Part shown: in pieces, positions 19,742-38,072 of the stretch
How the letters are laid out: every line of letters starts with the position of its first letter
Numbering within the stretch: position 1 is the stretch's first letter
From: Pirellulales bacterium
GTDB lineage: Bacteria; Planctomycetota; Planctomycetia; Pirellulales; JAIMBC01
Direction: 5' to 3'
NCBI GenBank assembly: GCA_023511675.1
Contig: JAIMBC010000012.1
Span: forward strand, 1-42,630
Length of the DNA: 42,630 nt
Notes under the pieces: generated by a model
Told to the model about the DNA's origin: nothing
Seen by the model: the letters and a program-made list of their open reading frames with translations, nothing else
Databases searched by the model: none
Position numbers and translations under genes: made by a program

Positions 19742-19922
19742 GGATGGGTACAGAGAGGCGTCAGCGCCGCCTGCCCCGTTGCCGGCTGCCGAATGCACGA
19801 TGCGTGCCCTGACCGCCCCACGGGGACGCGCCGCTTGCAATGCCGGTGTCAGTTCTGCCTGACGCCGCACTCTGGGCGTGCTGCCCCTGGCGAGGCCCGA
19901 TGGCGTCTGCGAGGTGAGGCCG

Positions 19923-20501
19923 ATGGGCACCATTACCATGCTGCTCGAGCAGTGCAAGCAGGGCGATGAAGAGGCGTTGCGCCTGCTGTGCGCCAAGTAC
20001 TGGGATGAACTCGTCGTCCTGGCACGGCGGCGGTTTGGCTCGCTGCCCAGGGTTGCTGTGGATGACACGGATGCGGTGAACAGCGCGTTGATGGCCTTCT
20101 GGTCCAAGGCACGTCGCGGCGAACTGCCAGGGGTGCAAGACTCGGGGCAGTTGCACGCCTGGCTGAGCACGGTGGTGGCCAACAAGGTGGTGAGCGAGAT
20201 TCGCCGTCAAACGGCACAGAAGGCAGGCGGCGGGCGGCGTAGCGACATGCCCTTGCTGGAACACCTGGCGCACACGTGGGAACTGTCTCCGCTGGAGCAC
20301 CAGCTTGTGGCCGAGACGTTGCAGTATTATGTAGAGCAGCTTCCCGAAGATGTGAAGTCCTTTGCGGCCTTTCACCTCGCCGGCCTGAACCACCAGGAGA
20401 TTGCCGACCGGCTGGGCTGCTCCCGGCGCACGGTCATCCGCAAGCTAAAGGTGGTCTTCGAGATCTGGGCCGAACTGGCCGCGAAGCGTGGGGAGGGGTA
20501 A
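19923..20501 (+). CDS. ECF-family RNA polymerase sigma factor
   Basis: 192 aa from ATG 19923 (GAGGTGAGG just upstream; the frame is open to 19878). Region 2 lies in ~10-85 (LLEQCKQGDEEALRLLCAKYWDEL... DDTDAVNSALMAFW). Region 4 occupies ~130-185 with an HTH, LAGLNHQEIADRLGCSRRTVIRKL. The DDTDAVNSAL pattern and the 'LARRRF' segment match the planctomycete ECF type (Sigma70_ECF, PF07638-like) that is commonly encoded next to Ser/Thr kinases. It directs RNA polymerase to a small regulon; the regulon is unknown. Its stop is three bases before the kinase ATG, so the pair is almost surely one operon and the kinase likely controls the sigma factor (known association; not proven here). Confidence 0.92.
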   Translation: MGTITMLLEQCKQGDEEALRLLCAKYWDELVVLARRRFGSLPRVAVDDTDAVNSALMAFWSKARRGELPGVQDSGQLHAWLSTVVANKVVSEIRRQTAQKAGGGRRSDMPLLEHLAHTWELSPLEHQLVAETLQYYVEQLPEDVKSFAAFHLAGLNHQEIADRLGCSRRTVIRKLKVVFEIWAELAAKRGEG

Positions 20502-20504
20502 GCC

Positions 20505-23500
20505 ATGGCCGATGAAGGGCAGCAGGCGGGCATGGGCGGCGCGGACAGGCCCTGGCAGGCGATCGACGGGCTGGCCAGCCGCTTTGATGCCGCGTGGCAG
20601 CGGGGCGAAACACCGGAAATCGAGCCCCTGCTGGCCGACTGCCCTGCCGAGCACCGTTTCGTGCTGCTGTGTGAGCTGGTGGCGCTCGACATCGAGTACC
20701 GCCGGGCCCGTGGAGAGCCGCAGGCACTGGAAGATTACTTTGACCGGTTCCCCGAACTGGCGGATCCGCGGATGCAACTTCCTGCCGATCTGCTCGAGTA
20801 CCTTCGCGCGCTGCCGACGGTGGCGGACGCCGGACTGTACCTTACGCCGCCTCCGGCTGCACGGGGGGATGCAGCGATGGGACGCTTTGTCGGACGCTTC
20901 GAGCTGCTCGATGTGGCAGGGGCCGGCGCCTTTGCAACCGTCTACCGCGCACGCGATATCCAGCTCAACCGGCTGGTGGCTATCAAGGTCCCGCGCGGCG
21001 CCCTGCTGAACAACGAGCGCGACAAGAGCCGCTTCCTCCGCGAGGCGCGAGCCGCCGCCGCACTAGACCACCCCGGCATCGTGCGCATCTTCGAGATCGG
21101 CGAGCATGAGGGGCTGCCGTTCCTGGTGAGCGAGCTGGTCGCCGGCCGCAGCCTGGCTGAAACTCTGCGGCAAGAGCGGCTCCCCTTTCACCGCTCGGCC
21201 GAGATCTTGATGGATCTGGCCATCGCCCTGCAGTACGCACACGAGCGCCAGGTGATCCATCGCGACCTCTCCCCGGCCAACGTGCTGATCGATGGGACAG
21301 ACCGCGTGCGGCTGACGGACTTCGGACTGGCACGTCTCCTCAACGAGGACACCTCGTTGACCCTCGATGGAGCTGTACTGGGCACGCCGGCCTATCTTTC
21401 TCCCGAGCAGGCCAGCGGCCGCTCGGCCGAGGTCGATCCTCGCAGCGACGTGTACAGCCTTGGCGTCATGCTGTACGAACTGCTTACTGGTCAGAAGCCC
21501 TTCTCCGGCGAAGTCACCGCCGTGCTACATGCCATCCTTCACGCCGAACCCGCCCGGCCCACGCGTCTGAATCCCCGGATTCCGGCGGATCTCGAAACCA
21601 TTTGTTTGAGCGCCATGAACAAGTCTCCCGCGCAGCGCTATCCGTCGGCCGCCGACCTGGCCGACGACTTGGGACGCTACCTGCGCGGGGAGCCGATCCG
21701 GGCCCGGCGTCCCGGCCTTGCCCGCCGCGGGCTCAAGTGGTGCCGGCGGCATCCGCTGGCGCTGCTCGTCTGCTTGGTCTCTCTGCTGGTAGCGGGAGAG
21801 CGGGCCGTGCGCTGGTGGACCATGCCCGGCACGCTGTCTGTGGTAGCCACACCCCCCGGCGCGAAGCTGGAGATTGCCGGGCAGACTCTGCAGGCCACGG
21901 GCGGAGTGCAACAGATTGCCTTGCCGGCGGGAACCTACCAGCTCGTGGTCAGTGCGCCCAATCATTTGACAGCCAGCATGCGCGTGCTGGTCCGGCGCGG
22001 TCGAGACGAGCCGCTCTCGATTGCCTTGCAGCACTTCCAGGGCCGCCTCGATCTGGCGGCCGAGCCGCCGGGTGCCGAGATCCTCCTCTGGGGCGAGCAG
22101 TGGGAGGAAGCGCGCAACTTCGGCTCGCAGATCGCGAACCTGGCCTTCCCCGTGGGCACGTACCGGGCGGAGGGACGGGGTGAAGGATTCTTCGATTCCG
22201 CCGAGGTCGTACTCCACCTGCACAAGGACGAGCGGGTGAACCGCCGCATCTGGCTCGACCGCGGCATGATCTGGCAATACCGCTCCAGTGGCTTGCAGCA
22301 AAGCCTGGTGCTAGAGGATCTCGACGGGGACGGAGCGCCAGAAATCGTCAATAATGAGCTGCGCAGGCTGGTGGTCTTCTCTGGCGCCACCGGCGAGGTG
22401 CTCTTCGAGCGGCCCTCGCTGGACGCCAACGCTATGAACCTCCGCCTAGCCGACCTGGGCGGAACCGTGGGCCGTGTTCTGATCACTTACGTTCAGCACG
22501 GGAGTACTCCCACACACGCGGGACAGCTTGAGGTCGCGGTCTATTGGCTGCACTCCTTGCGGGAACAACTGGCCTCGCAGCGCGGCTCAACGAAAGGGGG
22601 CAAGGGCAGGCCCCTGGACGCCGACTCTGTCTGGCGCGGCCCAGAGCTTGAGGAACCTTTGCCCACTGGTTGCTCGCTGAGCGTGCTTCAGGACCTTAAC
22701 GCCGATGGCGTTCGGGAACTCGCCGTGTGCGGCCTGCTACCGGTACTCTACGTGCTCGACGGTGCGGCCACGGACAGCGGCCTTGAGCTGGGCCGCTTTC
22801 CGTTGCACGTTCCCGCTTCCACCGAAGTCACTCACCTGTGGCTACCTTTGGAGGCCACGGCCGTAGCGTATTTGGCCGGCATCAGGAAGCCCGGACCAGC
22901 CGCCCAGGAACGAGCCAAATTCCCGCCACCGCGCCGCGCCCGGTCAGGACAGCGCGGCCTTGTCCAACGAGCCATGGGAGCCGTGGACCCTGTCACTGGA
23001 ACGCAAATCTGGTACCATACCTTTCCCACGCGTTTTGCTTCGCTTTCAGACCTCGATGGCGATCGCGCGCCGGAAATCGTCGTGGTGCTGGCGGACCGCT
23101 GGCAGGTGCTGGACGCCAAAACGGGCGAGCAGCTCTTCTCCGGGGAGATTCCCGCCCACCTGTTGCCCCTCTGGGACACCGACCCCGAGGCCGTGCATGT
23201 TGCCCTGGCAGACGTGGAGGGTGATGGCCAGGTCGAGTTGCTTTTTTTGGCCTCGCGGGCCAAGCCGCCGCTGGTGGCCGTGAATCTCGCCAGTGGGCAG
23301 ACGGTCTGCGATTACTCAGGCAACCTCCATCAGTCGCAGCCGGTTCTGCCTCACATGAGGTTTGTTACCGCAGGGTCCTATCTCCTGTTGCTTGAGCCCG
23401 CGGGGCTGGTGGCCCTGCGAGCCGACCTGCCGGCGCGGCGGTTTCAGGTCGCCTGGCGCTTCGCTGAGCGGATCACGGGCGTGCTCGTCGGCGATTGGGA

Positions 23501-25049
23501 CGCCGACGGCACCGAGGATGTCGTGTGCAGCATGCCGGGGCAGGGCATCGCCTGCCTGGAAACGAGTGATGGGAACGAGGCGCGGGCGCGCTGGCTGCTG
23601 CGGACCGCCAGTGAAATGCGCGCCGAGATGTGGTGTGGGGACGTCGACGGCGACGGCTGCCGCGAGATCGTTGTGCAGCGGTGGGCCGCCGCTCTGGGCG
23701 TGGCCCGCGGCCCGCGCTATTTCTGGCGACACATGGCCCAGGGGCCGCTGCAAGCGACACCCGTGGTATGCGACCTCGACGCCGACGGCCGATTGGAAGT
23801 GCTCCAAGTGGGCGACTGGGGCGAGGCAGGACGCTTGCTGTGCCTCAACGCTGCGACAGGTGACGTACGCTGGTACAACGGCCTTTCCGCATTGGCCCCG
23901 GGGAGTTACACCGGCCGCCCCGCCGCGGAGCGCCGCACGCCAGTGTCCATCCCTCCCAATTGCCCACCCGCTCTGGTGCCGGGGAAAGGCCGGCAAGGCT
24001 TCGACTTCGTGTCCATGGGAGTGATGGAAGGAGTCGTTCGCGGCCGACGCGGCATCCGTTCTGCCGCATGCACCTGGAGCGGCAGAGACGGGAGCCTGAT
24101 TGAATACGCCGTGCTGCCCGGCGCGCTTGAAAAAGTGTGGAACGCCACCACCCCGCTGTTCTGCGACTGCAACGGCGACGGGGCCGACGAGATCGTCGTG
24201 CTGCGATATTATCCCTACGACGTCGTGGCCCTCGACGGCAAGAATCCAGCTCAATGCTGGCGGCACGTGACGCACGGCCCCAACCTCGGCTCGGCGACTG
24301 CCGCCGACTTCGACCGGGACGGCCGTGCCGAAGTGGTTGTCGGCTCCTCCGACGGACTGGTTTACGTGCTCTCTGCCCCTGATGCCCGGGAACCCGATCC
24401 GGTGCGGCCCTTTGACGTGCTGTGGAGCTGGAACGTGAAAGGAGGCACGTTTTCCATTCCTTGCATTGCCGAAGTCACCGGGGACGAGCGGCCCGAAATC
24501 CTCGTAGTGAACAGCTCGGGCACGCTCTTCGTGCTGGACCCTGTGCTGAAGGAGTGCATCTGGCAGTACAGCGCTCCGCAAGGATCCGGTGACATTTTCG
24601 GCGGGCCGGCGGCGTACCGGCTTGCCCCGCCGCCCCAAGGGGGCGCCGAGCCCGACGCAGACGGCGAAGTGGGCCCAGCGATCGTGGTGGCTCCATTTGG
24701 TGACGGCGGCGCCGCTGCGCTGGATGTAACAAACCGTCGAGAACTCTGGAACATCACGGACCATCCGATCGTCTCTACCCCTCTGATCAGAGATCTGGAC
24801 GGCGACGGCCGCCAGGAACTCGTGCTCACCACCGGGGACGGCTATCTGCTGGTGCGCGCTCTGCTGACCGGCGAGCCCTTCTGGCACCTGCGCGTGAGCC
24901 AGCAACCTATCCAAGGCGATCCCGTGGCCGCCGACCTGAACGGCGACGGGATCGACGACTTTGTGATCGCGGCAACGGACTTCCAGCTCTCGGCCATCGC
25001 GGGCGTCAAACCGCGACGGCAGCCGCCCCGACCAACGGTACACCCGTAG
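20505..25049 (+). CDS. Membrane Ser/Thr kinase fused to PEGA repeats and an FG-GAP beta-propeller
   Basis: 1514 aa, ATG 20505. Residues ~1-115 are an N-terminal helical region like that of other planctomycete kinases. The kinase domain (131-393) has the Gly loop AGAGAFATV, K161 (VAIK), H252-R-D254, N259, D272-F-G and SPEQ (300). The catalytic loop is HRDLSPAN: Ser256 replaces the Lys typical of Ser/Thr kinases. A TM helix at ~417-431 follows. Two PEGA-type beta domains come next (~442-508 and ~512-590, each with PPGA and AGTY/VGTY). About eleven D-x-[DN]-x-DG/FG-GAP motifs (from LEDLDGDG to DLNGDG) build one or more extracytoplasmic propellers. The architecture suggests a receptor: outside ligand binding signals to the inside kinase and the co-encoded sigma factor. 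The ligand is unknown. Confidence 0.92.
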   Translation: MADEGQQAGMGGADRPWQAIDGLASRFDAAWQRGETPEIEPLLADCPAEHRFVLLCELVALDIEYRRARGEPQALEDYFDRFPELADPRMQLPADLLEYLRALPTVADAGLYLTPPPAARGDAAMGRFVGRFELLDVAGAGAFATVYRARDIQLNRLVAIKVPRGALLNNERDKSRFLREARAAAALDHPGIVRIFEIGEHEGLPFLVSELVAGRSLAETLRQERLPFHRSAEILMDLAIALQYAHERQVIHRDLSPANVLIDGTDRVRLTDFGLARLLNEDTSLTLDGAVLGTPAYLSPEQASGRSAEVDPRSDVYSLGVMLYELLTGQKPFSGEVTAVLHAILHAEPARPTRLNPRIPADLETICLSAMNKSPAQRYPSAADLADDLGRYLRGEPIRARRPGLARRGLKWCRRHPLALLVCLVSLLVAGERAVRWWTMPGTLSVVATPPGAKLEIAGQTLQATGGVQQIALPAGTYQLVVSAPNHLTASMRVLVRRGRDEPLSIALQHFQGRLDLAAEPPGAEILLWGEQWEEARNFGSQIANLAFPVGTYRAEGRGEGFFDSAEVVLHLHKDERVNRRIWLDRGMIWQYRSSGLQQSLVLEDLDGDGAPEIVNNELRRLVVFSGATGEVLFERPSLDANAMNLRLADLGGTVGRVLITYVQHGSTPTHAGQLEVAVYWLHSLREQLASQRGSTKGGKGRPLDADSVWRGPELEEPLPTGCSLSVLQDLNADGVRELAVCGLLPVLYVLDGAATDSGLELGRFPLHVPASTEVTHLWLPLEATAVAYLAGIRKPGPAAQERAKFPPPRRARSGQRGLVQRAMGAVDPVTGTQIWYHTFPTRFASLSDLDGDRAPEIVVVLADRWQVLDAKTGEQLFSGEIPAHLLPLWDTDPEAVHVALADVEGDGQVELLFLASRAKPPLVAVNLASGQTVCDYSGNLHQSQPVLPHMRFVTAGSYLLLLEPAGLVALRADLPARRFQVAWRFAERITGVLVGDWDADGTEDVVCSMPGQGIACLETSDGNEARARWLLRTASEMRAEMWCGDVDGDGCREIVVQRWAAALGVARGPRYFWRHMAQGPLQATPVVCDLDADGRLEVLQVGDWGEAGRLLCLNAATGDVRWYNGLSALAPGSYTGRPAAERRTPVSIPPNCPPALVPGKGRQGFDFVSMGVMEGVVRGRRGIRSAACTWSGRDGSLIEYAVLPGALEKVWNATTPLFCDCNGDGADEIVVLRYYPYDVVALDGKNPAQCWRHVTHGPNLGSATAADFDRDGRAEVVVGSSDGLVYVLSAPDAREPDPVRPFDVLWSWNVKGGTFSIPCIAEVTGDERPEILVVNSSGTLFVLDPVLKECIWQYSAPQGSGDIFGGPAAYRLAPPPQGGAEPDADGEVGPAIVVAPFGDGGAAALDVTNRRELWNITDHPIVSTPLIRDLDGDGRQELVLTTGDGYLLVRALLTGEPFWHLRVSQQPIQGDPVAADLNGDGIDDFVIAATDFQLSAIAGVKPRRQPPRPTVHP

Positions 25050-25698: not shown

Positions 25699-26637
25699 AT
25701 GCCTGCCGTTGTTGTGCGTAGCTCAATTGTTGCGGCGATGTGCTGGGGGGCCTGCCTTCTGTCGGCCCACGCCCAGCAGGCGGCCGTGGGCGTGCCGTTT
25801 GTGGCCGCCAACCATGGCTTCTTTGAGCGGATCGGCCTGGCGTGGGGGCTGAGCGGGCCCGGTTTTGCCGCGCAGTTCAACAATGGATTTGCCGCCGCGC
25901 TGCCGCAGTTCGGGGGCTTTCAGCCAGGTACTGGCGTCACAGGGGGGGCGGCCTGGGGCGGCGGTGGACTGCAGGGCGGTTTCGCATTCGAGGCCGGGCA
26001 GGGTGCCCGTAGCAGCGTCGTCTCCCAGGTCCCCCTCATCCTACTGCCCAACGGCCAGGGTGGTTTTGTCGGTGATGTGGTCTTGCAGCCATTTGTCTTC
26101 GGGCTGGTGCCGGTTGTGAACGACTATGCCCTCTCGCCCTCGCTCGTGGCAGCTCCCACCGCTGCGGCACAGGCCCTGGCAGCCCGACGCGCCGCACGTG
26201 CCGCCGGGGACGATGATGCGTTTGCCGACGCCAAGGATGCGGACCTGGCGGAGCAAGACGCGGCTCCTCTGGAGCCGCCCGCTGCAAGAGCGCTGCCGAG
26301 CACGGCAGATCAGCCCGTTGTCAGCCTGGCAGAGTTGAGACGCCGTAAGGCGCAGGCCCAGGCAGATGCGGCGCAGCGTAGGCAGCCTGTGCTGCGCCTG
26401 GGCATGCAAGCCGAGCAACCAGATGGCGTCGCTGCTCCCCAAGGCGGCAGAGCAGCGCCCGTAGACCGAACGGCGCAGCGAGAGGCGGAAAAGTACCTTG
26501 AACTGGGGCTGGATGCAGAACGCAAGGGCCAACTCGTTGAGGCCCGTGTGGCTTATCGCATGGCGGCCAGACGCGCCAGCGGCGTGTTGCTTGAGATCAT
26601 TCAGCACAAGCTGGCGGCACTGACGCAGCAGCCGTAG
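25699..26637 (+). CDS. Secreted protein of unknown function
   Basis: 312 aa; ATG 25699 is preceded by a GGAAGGAAGG SD. A clear signal peptide ends at AHA-QQ (residue ~25). The next ~110 residues are Gly/Phe/Val-rich (FGGFQPGTGVTGGAAWGGGG), probably beta or low-complexity. Residues ~150-235 are Ala/Asp/Arg-rich and likely disordered or helical (AALAARRAARAAGDDD). The C-terminal ~55 residues (DRTAQREAEKYLELGLDAERKGQLVEARVAYRMAARRA) look like a single TPR-like helical hairpin. No enzyme motif. Similar secreted unknowns with a short C-terminal repeat are common in planctomycetes. It converges on the cyclophilin lipoprotein gene 90 bp away. Confidence 0.75.
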   Translation: MPAVVVRSSIVAAMCWGACLLSAHAQQAAVGVPFVAANHGFFERIGLAWGLSGPGFAAQFNNGFAAALPQFGGFQPGTGVTGGAAWGGGGLQGGFAFEAGQGARSSVVSQVPLILLPNGQGGFVGDVVLQPFVFGLVPVVNDYALSPSLVAAPTAAAQALAARRAARAAGDDDAFADAKDADLAEQDAAPLEPPAARALPSTADQPVVSLAELRRRKAQAQADAAQRRQPVLRLGMQAEQPDGVAAPQGGRAAPVDRTAQREAEKYLELGLDAERKGQLVEARVAYRMAARRASGVLLEIIQHKLAALTQQP

Positions 26638-35757: not shown

Positions 35758-35818
35758 GTGGTCAGCCGCCCGGATATCAGCCATCCGAGCGTGATCCGCC
35801 CGGCGGTCAGCCGCCCGG
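35758..35818. repeat. Degenerate GC repeat at the 3' end of the second kinase
   Basis: G(T/C)GGTCAGCCGCCCGG occurs at 35758-35773 and 35803-35818, with a partial third copy (ATCCGCCCGG) between. The second copy overlaps the kinase stop at 35807, and its GGCGG/CCGCC part can form a short hairpin there. Confidence 0.4.
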
Positions 35819-37480
35819 CAGGGGCCTGCGTTCATAATACCGGCTCAGGGCGCGGACGCGCCATACCTGGTACGCCGTGACCGTGCCAACCATCAACAGG
35901 GCCGCGACGAAGATCAGATGGTGATGCCACAGCCCCGCCTCTTCGCTGGGTGGCTGGGCCGTGGCGGTCAGCAACGTGTAGGCCACTGCCGCGAGCGCCG
36001 TGCTGAACCACACGAGGCGTACGCGAAACCAGAGTCCAGCGGTAGCGATCAGCAGTGGAAACGCCACCACCAGCGGACTGAATGGGTTGTGCGTGATCCA
36101 GAGAATGAACGACGCCAGCAGCATGTCGGCCGTCGACCAGGCAAACGGAACAAGGATCTTGTTCCGGGCACGAGCAGCAGCCCACTCAAACGCCGCCGCC
36201 GCAGCGGCAAACATACCCAGCGCCCCCAACACAGCCGCGTGCCGTAGCGGAGTGACTTGCTGTATGAGTGTGTAGGACAAATGCGCTACCAGGGCAAATA
36301 TCAGCGCGGCCGCCAGGCGAATGGCCAGCGCTGGACGCCGCCGGCACCAGCGTGCCAGGCGGTGCAGCGGCCCACGCGGCCGCGCCTCAACCGGCTCTTC
36401 CCTGAGAAACCGCTCCAGGTCCGCCGCCAAGGCACCGGCCGAGGGATAGCGAGCCTCCGGCCTCTTCTCAAGACACCGCAGGATGACGAGTTCCAGATCC
36501 CTCGGCAGGTGCCGGTTGAGGGTGCGCGGCGCCGGCGGCTCGCCTTCCAGGACCTGCACAAGAGTTTCCAACGGGGTGGGCTCATCAAACGGGGGCCGTC
36601 CCGTTGCCAACTCATACAGAATGGCACCCAGGCTGTAGACATCCGCCCCCGGCCCCACAGCCTGCCTGCGCCCGGCGGCCTGCTCGGGGGCCATGTAGCT
36701 CGGCGTGCCCACAATCATGCCCGACTGCGTAAGTTGGCTATCCCCGCCGCAGGCCAATGCCAAGCCGAAGTCTGTCACATAAGGGTGCCCCTCTTGGTCC
36801 ACCAAGATGTTGGAAGGCTTGAGATCCCGGTGCACAATGCCGTGCTGATGCAAATGCTCCACGGCCCCCGCCACCTGAGCCATCAATCGAGCTGCTGCGC
36901 GCGGCTCCATGGGTTGACCAGCCGCTACGGCACCCAGCTCGCGTCCCTCGACATAATCCATCGTGAAATAGGGTTGGCCGTGCAGCTCTCCCACCTCATG
37001 TACTGCGACCACGTTGGGGTGGCGCAGCCGTGCCGCTGCCCGCGCCTCCGCCTGAAACCGCAGCACCGCCTGCTCCGTGGGAAGCTGGGTGGGAAGGATC
37101 ATCTTCAGCGCTACCACGCGGCCCAGGCTTTTCTGCCGGGCCTTGTACACGACCCCCATGCCGCCGCGACCCAGTTCCTCCAGCAGCTCGTAGCCGCCAA
37201 AGTCGACACGGGTCTGCCACACGCCCATCGAGGGCCACTCGGGCGACAACGGTGCGGCCTTGTGGCGTGCCTCAACGCCTGGCGCCGACACGTCCGCCAC
37301 GCCAGACTGCGCCAGCCGCTCCACTGCTTCCAGGCAGGTCAGTGTGGTGGCCAGCTCGGGGAACTCGCGCAGCACGCACTCGCGATCAGGACGTTCGCCT
37401 TTTTGCAGTGCGTCCACATAAGCATCCAGTGCCGCCAGGGCCCGCTCATCCAGGGGCGTGTCGCCCTCAGCATCGTTCAT
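35807..37480 (-). CDS. Ser/Thr kinase with C-terminal multi-pass membrane domain
   Basis: 557 aa, ATG 37480. Residues 1-90 are a helical region with the DAYVDALQKGERPDRECVL pattern found in planctomycete kinases. The kinase domain (97-360) is complete: GRGGMGVVY, K126 (VALK), H217-R-D219-LK-P-S-N224, D237-F-G, APEQ (264-267). All catalytic residues are canonical, unlike the kinase at 20505. Residues ~387-538 contain about six TM helices with short loops, without a large extracellular part, so the sensed signal may be membrane-borne. It overlaps the upstream ECF sigma gene by 14 nt, which indicates translational coupling. It probably modulates that sigma factor (inference from the known pairing). 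Confidence 0.93.
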   Translation of the reverse strand: MNDAEGDTPLDERALAALDAYVDALQKGERPDRECVLREFPELATTLTCLEAVERLAQSGVADVSAPGVEARHKAAPLSPEWPSMGVWQTRVDFGGYELLEELGRGGMGVVYKARQKSLGRVVALKMILPTQLPTEQAVLRFQAEARAAARLRHPNVVAVHEVGELHGQPYFTMDYVEGRELGAVAAGQPMEPRAAARLMAQVAGAVEHLHQHGIVHRDLKPSNILVDQEGHPYVTDFGLALACGGDSQLTQSGMIVGTPSYMAPEQAAGRRQAVGPGADVYSLGAILYELATGRPPFDEPTPLETLVQVLEGEPPAPRTLNRHLPRDLELVILRCLEKRPEARYPSAGALAADLERFLREEPVEARPRGPLHRLARWCRRRPALAIRLAAALIFALVAHLSYTLIQQVTPLRHAAVLGALGMFAAAAAAFEWAAARARNKILVPFAWSTADMLLASFILWITHNPFSPLVVAFPLLIATAGLWFRVRLVWFSTALAAVAYTLLTATAQPPSEEAGLWHHHLIFVAALLMVGTVTAYQVWRVRALSRYYERRPLPGG

Positions 37481-38072
37481 CCATCAGGTCCTTCAACCGA
37501 CGCACGGCGCGCAACCACAACATTTGCACGGCTGGCCGCGAGCGCTGCATGCGTTGTGCGACTTCGTCGAACGGAAGCTGCTCGAAGTGCCGCAATTGGA
37601 TCACTTGTTGATAATCGTCCGACAAGGCCGTGATGGCCTGTGCCAGACGTAAAACCTCTTCGTGCACCACGGCTTGCTCGCTCGGGCTGGGAATGTCTGC
37701 CGTCGGTTCGCACCGTATCGCCGAACGGTCGTCCGCGCCGGCCAGGGAGACGTGGCCTGCCCCCCTCTTCGCCGTGCAGAACCAGCGTACATAGTCGACT
37801 GCGTTGCGCAGCAGAATCTGCCGCAACCACGCCAGCCACTCTCCTTCTGTGCGGCCGGCGAAACCTTCAAAGGCGCGGTATGCCTCGAGCAATGTCTGCT
37901 GCACCAGATCGGAAGGGTCGACGCGTGACCGCAGCTTCTCTTCCAGACATGCGCGCGCCACGATGGCCAGCCAGGGACGCGATGCCTCGTAGAGGCGGTT
38001 GAGAGCATCGGCATCTCCTTCTCGGGCACGTGCCAATAACTCGCTGACGGCCGCGGACGTGGTCTCTGGCAT
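37467..38072 (-). CDS. ECF-family RNA polymerase sigma factor
   Basis: 201 aa, ATG 38072. Region 2 lies at ~10-100 (LLARAREGDADALNRLYEAS, RVDPSDLVQQTLLEAYRAF, GEWLAWLRQILLRNAVDYVR). Region 4 at ~140-198 has an HTH (LPFDEVAQRMQRSRPAVQMLWLRAVRRL). The SDLVQQTLLEA motif is typical of planctomycete ECF sigma factors paired with Ser/Thr kinases. Its 3' end overlaps the kinase start (37467-37480). It is a different ECF subtype from the one at 19923, so the two pairs are not a recent duplication. A weak promoter candidate lies ~90 nt upstream. Target genes are unknown. Confidence 0.92.
   Translation of the reverse strand: MPETTSAAVSELLARAREGDADALNRLYEASRPWLAIVARACLEEKLRSRVDPSDLVQQTLLEAYRAFEGFAGRTEGEWLAWLRQILLRNAVDYVRWFCTAKRGAGHVSLAGADDRSAIRCEPTADIPSPSEQAVVHEEVLRLAQAITALSDDYQQVIQLRHFEQLPFDEVAQRMQRSRPAVQMLWLRAVRRLKDLMDERC

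Follow-up and report, generated by a model that had tools for sequence, protein, structure and literature searches.

The window, i.e. the whole stretch of 42,630 nucleotides that was analysed, carries on its forward strand an ECF sigma factor gene followed by the gene of a large receptor kinase. As the preliminary description, made from the letters of this DNA, had stated, the two genes lie three bases apart: the TAA stop codon of the sigma gene is followed by GCC and then by the ATG of the kinase gene. The features are the following:

19878 to 20501 (+): ECF sigma factor gene, 207 residues from a GTG start (PF07638, 92 bits)
20058 to 20102 (+): sigma region 2.2, VDDTDAVNSALMAFW, with Ser69 (codon 20082-20084) where most ECF factors have Glu or Asp
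20505 to 25049 (+): receptor kinase gene, 1514 residues, three bases past the sigma stop codon
20547 to 20789 (+): N-terminal helical domain, residues 15-95, without match in Pfam or the PDB, which recurs in ECF-linked kinases
20883 to 21683 (+): PknB-like kinase domain, residues 127-393
21258 to 21281 (+): catalytic loop HRDLSPAN, residues 252-259, with Ser256 (codon 21270-21272)
21741 to 21809 (+): single transmembrane helix, about residues 413-435, from hydropathy
21828 to 22031 (+): PEGA domain 1, residues 442-509, from Pfam
22038 to 22274 (+): PEGA-like domain 2, about residues 512-590, weak, from BLAST and alignment with the relative L186
22272 to 25034 (+): FG-GAP/PQQ-type beta-propeller region with 12 DxDxDG-like motifs

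The score of the sigma ORF with PF07638 is far above the cut-off of 21.1 bits and identifies it as an ECF sigma factor; an alternative start is possible at the ATG of codon 16. In the receptor kinase, Pfam detected Pkinase (PF00069) on residues 135-379 (E = 5e-44, 151 bits for a cut-off of 31.7) and the first PEGA domain (23.9 bits for a cut-off of 20.8). FG-GAP_3, FG-GAP, PQQ_2 and the lambda-carrageenase propeller family were also above cut-off. The hydropathy profile of the 1514-residue ORF has its hydrophobic maximum at 417-435, directly after the basic stretch RRGLKWCRRH, so that a kinase inside and a C-terminus outside would fit; a further peak at 953 falls within the propeller region. 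The solved chain nearest to the kinase is Mycobacterium PknB; a Foldseek match to PknB was obtained as well, from the low-confidence kinase part of a single-sequence model. At residue 288, where PknB has its second activation-loop Thr (TQT, here TLD), there is an Asp that possibly acts as a built-in phosphomimic. Asp or Glu stands in this column in 31 of 181 aligned kinases, a set enriched for Ser, Thr and Cys loops.

The next gene downstream, at 25699-26637 (+), encodes 312 residues without Pfam match, and it is possible that its product belongs to the sigma-kinase unit. The window also contains a second ECF-kinase pair, at 35807-38072 (-), with the sigma motif DLVQQT and the kinase loop HRDLKPSN, and without the N-terminal domain.

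The PEGA and propeller half of the receptor kinase

No Pfam match was obtained on residues 512-595 alone. Compared directly with the first PEGA domain, the second is 31% identical over 42 residues (BLAST, E = 1e-6 in this one pairwise test), and a single alignment block with the closest relative, L186, spans residues 437-600 at 39% identity; the second PEGA domain is weak and probably real. The region that follows, of about 920 residues, has 10 FG-GAP-type motifs by a strict pattern and 12 by a looser one. Pfam, hydropathy and motifs agree with the kinase-PEGA-PEGA-propeller order, with about eleven FG-GAP motifs, read in the preliminary description.

A profile built from the propeller of the window protein and six relatives matches a hemolysin-related structure (6mlt, 2e-13), quinoprotein dehydrogenases and BamB, and also 7eq5, a "membrane associated protein kinase with beta-propeller domain" (2e-8). 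From the spacing of the motifs, the propeller probably forms two rings; a single-sequence AlphaFold2 model of the region has a mean pLDDT of 35.8. An N-terminal kinase, a single transmembrane segment and a C-terminal propeller make up, by sequence, the layout of a beta-propeller receptor kinase.

The two halves differ in their relatives. The kinase half is closest to kinases of the same order, with a best identity of 54%. For the propeller half, a search of the order's 295 other sampled genomes gave no match at E = 1e-10; with a threshold of 1e-3, the genomes listed included one from the order, G082, where the match has 98 residues and contains an in-frame stop. At 1e-3, 95 of 392 sampled genomes of the phylum match, with strong full-length relatives in G332, G545, G376 and G300, and at 13 of 20 loci around phylum matches there is a kinase ORF in which five or more FG-GAP motifs occur. 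The propeller is 30-32% identical to those of six relatives from other families of the phylum, and when the distribution of the architecture was followed, as the preliminary description had proposed, PEGA domains were found together with kinase and FG-GAP motifs in L186, L187, L189 and L190. In a tree of 78 kinase domains, those of the FG-GAP relatives fall in other clades (the incomplete L188 was left out). An ECF-like ORF is absent at 18 of the 20 FG-GAP loci, and the two others, L195 and L199, have one on the strand opposite the kinase. Since an order-typical kinase half is joined to a propeller from a phylum-wide set, we read the protein as a recombinant, that is, a chimera of an order-typical, ECF-linked kinase and a phylum-wide FG-GAP sensor. 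A search of genome contigs for related loci returned L062 alone, where only the kinase part matches by ORF comparison. The same genome also holds a second set of ECF, kinase and FG-GAP genes (L111/L125), without PEGA match.

Ser256 in the catalytic loop

The Lys of the catalytic-loop motif HRDxKxxN, which is usual and not absolute, is replaced by Ser256 in the receptor kinase. The preliminary description had noted this Ser together with K161, D254, N259 and D272, and all five were confirmed by position; with E180 and E301, the other catalytic residues are present from the VAIK Lys to the APE Glu. Between AAG (Lys) and TCC (Ser) there are three base differences, so no single sequencing error explains Ser256.

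We counted the residues found at this place in 97 genomes of the order, with motif patterns that are blind to AGR-coded Arg and to other residues: among 2159 motif places, Lys stands in 2066, Cys in 75, Thr in 10 and Ser in 8. Such a Ser is therefore rare in relatives, where its being common would have spoken against the atypical loop first described. In the kinase tree, the receptor kinase belongs to a clade of 27 rows (support 99/95) in which the 26 others have Lys, and Lys is likewise present in all 13 FG-GAP kinases that were located; Ser256 is thus a lone, derived residue. It appears to be an isolated substitution in an enzyme that is intact in other respects, on a branch of ordinary length (0.52 for a median end branch of 0.44).

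The alignment of 181 kinases was enriched on purpose for loci with Ser, Thr or Cys loops, and the relatives L032-L060 were selected by similarity to the whole 1514-residue protein. The 16 rows with a Ser or Thr loop require at least three label changes, and no other Ser or Thr occurs in the 27-row clade; a single family of Ser-loop kinases was ruled out. All 26 aligned Cys rows and all 7 of the other Ser rows keep the five other catalytic residues tested, and so do 9 of the 12 rows with Thr. The Lys has therefore been replaced by Ser, Thr or Cys several times in otherwise intact planctomycete kinases, and its loss alone is no proof of a pseudokinase.

The Cys-loop kinase, HRD[IVF]CPRN, is nearly universal, with one copy per genome in 75 of the 97 order genomes (for example L064-L080), mostly as ORFs of about 300 residues; the copy of the genome studied here is at G000:C420:6557-6582.

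LIMK1 provides a precedent: it has HRDLNSHN in its catalytic loop, according to PMC8750758, and PMC6835155 reports its kinase activity. An active kinase with HRDLN indicates that the catalytic-loop Lys is dispensable. Since the remaining catalytic residues are intact, the branch is ordinary and LIMK1 is active, a pseudokinase produced by decay was dropped as first choice. We infer that the receptor kinase is catalytically competent despite Ser256; by this analogy, the loss of the Lys may be harmless in this very protein. The preliminary description stands for the architecture, Ser256 and the coupling to an ECF gene, whereas its suggestion of a possibly slow, regulated or partly pseudo activity is not our preferred reading. 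It did not mention the N-terminal domain found in ECF-linked kinases, the Ser of sigma region 2.2 or the chimeric nature of the protein. A literature search for HRDLS-like motifs returned noise only.

Ser256 could also be adaptive, adjusting the rate or the choice of acceptor in the manner of LIMK-like loops, and not neutral drift. The appearance of Thr or Ser on several separate branches with the other catalytic residues mostly intact, and the Cys conserved at the same place in one kinase per genome, agree with such tuning, which would be compatible with the phosphorylation pathway proposed below. As it rests on one sequence, with no close orthologue among the sequences compared, we consider it rather improbable.

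The N-terminal domain and the sigma factor encoded upstream

The domain ahead of the kinase, called here the N-domain, had no match in Pfam or the PDB and matched no anti-sigma family; two of ten aligned members resembled PF20271 weakly (best E = 0.003). Its residues 21-70 are predicted to be helical with pLDDT 81-88 without an alignment, in a model that is mostly poor elsewhere. Profile matches occur in 35 of 39 order genomes. We examined 90 N-domain places among those listed, namely 30 loci and then the next 60 by E-value, 28 other listed places lying outside this set: kinase ORFs carry the domain in 85 cases and other ORFs in 4, and the remaining one, L315, is truncated at the end of its contig. 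One N-domain ORF of 120 residues, L386, is probably a split gene.

Directly upstream of 42 of the 90 N-domain ORFs, on the same strand, there is an ECF or HTH gene. Once the LuxR-type HTH gene upstream of L326 was left out, 41 ECF factors remained, and 39 of them lack Glu or Asp at the region 2.2 place (Ser 33, Gly 2, Asn 2, Ala 1, Cys 1, Glu 2). The sigma factor of the window is of this kind: it reads DDTDAVNS, with the acidic DxxD pair kept and Ser69 at the later Glu/Asp place. Eleven other N-domain kinases face an ECF gene on the opposite strand, with Glu in nine, Asp in one and Arg in one. The rule that the N-domain occurs only with Ser-type sigmas failed, first on five kinases opposite Glu/Asp-type ECF factors and then, in the wider set, on 10 of 11; these divergent pairs indicate that a Ser-type sigma is no precondition for the N-domain. 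This divergent class includes L286, L289, L250, L300, L275 and others, and the region 2.2 of its ECF factors resembles VEPDDxxQEVxxEAV.

The position after DxxDxxQ was also followed from the sigma side, in 147 ECF ORFs (141 loci, 13 genomes) that comprise the earlier loci and those of about 150 listed matches which start before about profile position 20. Among the matches listed, 91 ORFs have Glu or Asp there and 34 have Ser. With one gap row left out, a kinase is adjacent downstream for 23 of 35 Ser/Thr-type sigmas and for 44 of 111 others (p = 0.011, among the matches listed). This association is only modest and was not retained as a rule that a Ser-type sigma means an adjacent kinase: 44 of the 67 adjacent sigmas are not Ser/Thr. 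Among these 67 adjacent pairs of the matches listed, the N-domain is present in 19 of the 23 with a Ser/Thr-type sigma, the window pair included, versus 8 of the 44 others; at E = 1e-5 the counts are 18 of 23 versus 3 of 44. In the sigma tree, the Ser-type and N-domain rows lie nearly all on one side of a branch with support 95/87, where 23 of 26 rows have Ser, and the other side holds 42 rows with one Thr. As the Ser-type sigmas are mostly on one side, these counts are not independent events, and the link between Ser-type sigmas and the N-domain is mostly shared descent over long branches. In two single ORFs, L213:2039-3559 and L237:2733-4256, a Ser-type ECF sigma and a kinase domain with an HCDLKP loop are joined.

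In the genome studied here, an ECF gene lies near 2 of 2 N-domain kinases versus 3 of 27 kinases without the N-domain (p = 0.025); among the relatives the proportions are 10 of 16 versus 5 of 13, which is not significant (p = 0.27). Seen over the whole set, 34 of the 85 N-domain kinases have no ECF gene within the stretch examined, and two have a far one. These kinases, the absence of a nearby ECF-like ORF in the architecture relatives L186-L190 and the acidic DxxD pair kept by the sigma would all suit an active receptor kinase that acts mainly on other proteins, with an ECF gene that is only co-transcribed or autoregulatory. The gap of just three bases and the repeated occurrence of Ser-type ECF factors in operons with such kinases argue against this, and we regard it as quite unlikely.

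Two N-domain proteins pair with an ECF factor where there is no kinase. In L311 (46-2441), a Ser-type ECF is followed by a protein that combines the N-domain with TPR repeats and has a hydrophobic segment at 140; this protein is a candidate membrane partner of the sigma. In L318 (1051-2390), the ECF is followed by an N-domain protein of 243 residues whose end is weakly similar to sigma region 4. In L326 (962-3222), the LuxR-type HTH gene mentioned above precedes an ORF that joins the N-domain to a flavin amine oxidase-like enzyme.

In L311, the N-domain thus accompanies an ECF factor where no kinase is present. The receptor could then behave like an anti-sigma factor, its N-domain sequestering the sigma at the membrane until a signal at the propeller frees it, with the kinase weak or a scaffold, as the departure of Ser256 from the loop consensus might also suggest. 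However, 85 of 90 N-domain ORFs being kinases, the preserved catalytic residues and the lack of a match to any anti-sigma family make this unlikely.

The N-domain appears to be a marker of kinases that accompany ECF sigma factors of this sort, and its recurrence is a new observation here. Our literature search, with most subscription journals outside it, returned no paper on this domain, and none on PEGA/FG-GAP kinases paired with an ECF factor.

A proposed envelope-to-transcription pathway and comparison with known systems

From the observed gene order, domains, catalytic residues, Ser at the Glu position and pairing of N-domain and ECF, we propose a pathway from envelope to transcription encoded by one operon. 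The FG-GAP/PQQ-type propeller, probably in two rings, would stand outside, kept off the membrane by the PEGA domains, and would sense a ligand or a surface, probably with bound calcium. The signal would pass through the single helix to a Hanks-type Ser/Thr kinase competent despite Lys256Ser. The N-terminal helical domain would hold or recruit the sigma encoded just upstream, and the kinase would phosphorylate it, most likely on Ser69 in region 2.2, where the phosphate would restore the negative charge required for binding to RNA polymerase. Taken as a whole, with sensing by the propeller, phosphorylation of the operon sigma at Ser69 and docking by the N-domain, we give this pathway slightly better than even chances.

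More tentatively, and with somewhat less than even confidence, the N-domain (about 70 residues) may be a new planctomycete sigma-partner module for Ser-type ECF factors, attached to kinases with diverse sensors and now and then to other proteins, a docking domain and a phosphorylatable Ser then replacing an anti-sigma factor. To our knowledge, hardly any partners have been established for the dozens of kinases and numerous ECF factors that a planctomycete genome encodes. The N-domain together with a Ser-type region 2.2 would allow kinase-sigma pairs to be called from sequence, and these could then be tested within one strain.

Phosphorylation in region 2.2 is known to switch ECF43 factors, and five more groups, ECF59, 61, 62, 217 and 283, have a link to kinases, with members from planctomycetes in four of the five (PMC8103513 and PMC8999054); in the review PMC8103513, a serine is the predicted site in ECF59. 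Phosphorylation in region 2.2 is proven for EcfK/PknS and EcfP/PknT (PMC13147305 and PMC8999054). According to PMC13147305, EcfK is directly phosphorylated by PknS, partly in the linker, its T51A form is functional, and about 81 N-terminal residues of PknS are predicted to form three to four helices.

Like EcfP/PknT of Vibrio parahaemolyticus and EcfK/PknS of Xanthomonas citri, the pair described here consists of an adjacent ECF factor and transmembrane Hanks kinase; it shares with the ECF43 pairs a Ser or Thr in sigma region 2.2 and with PknS a helical stretch ahead of the kinase. Unlike in ECF43, where DxxD is replaced by uncharged residues with Thr, the acidic pair is kept here and the Ser is at the later Glu/Asp place. 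Because DDTD is kept, the sigma need not depend on phosphorylation, and since EcfK T51A is still functional, the main switch may be something other than a site in region 2.2. The sensor also differs from those of the ECF43 pairs, being an FG-GAP propeller, and the N-domain has no sequence link to any solved chain. By gene context, the pair resembles ECF59, ECF61, ECF62 and ECF217, which are, in the table of PMC8999054, planctomycete ECF factors beside Ser/Thr kinases with predicted control by phosphorylation.

As regards the receptor, 7eq5 and 7dxn also combine a kinase and an outside propeller in a single membrane protein, whereas here the propeller is of the FG-GAP type, with PEGA spacers, and the gene is in an operon with an ECF gene. 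PknD of M. tuberculosis and DR2518 of D. radiodurans are kinases with an outside propeller. The loop of Mycobacterium PknB, whose outer part consists of PASTA domains, is HRDVKPAN versus HRDLSPAN here. The absence of the catalytic-loop Lys is shared with LIMK1, a eukaryotic TKL kinase which has Asn where Ser is found here. An ECF factor with an adjacent Ser/Thr kinase is already known in planctomycetes, and the propeller/PEGA kinase with its ECF factor and N-domain is a variant of this arrangement.
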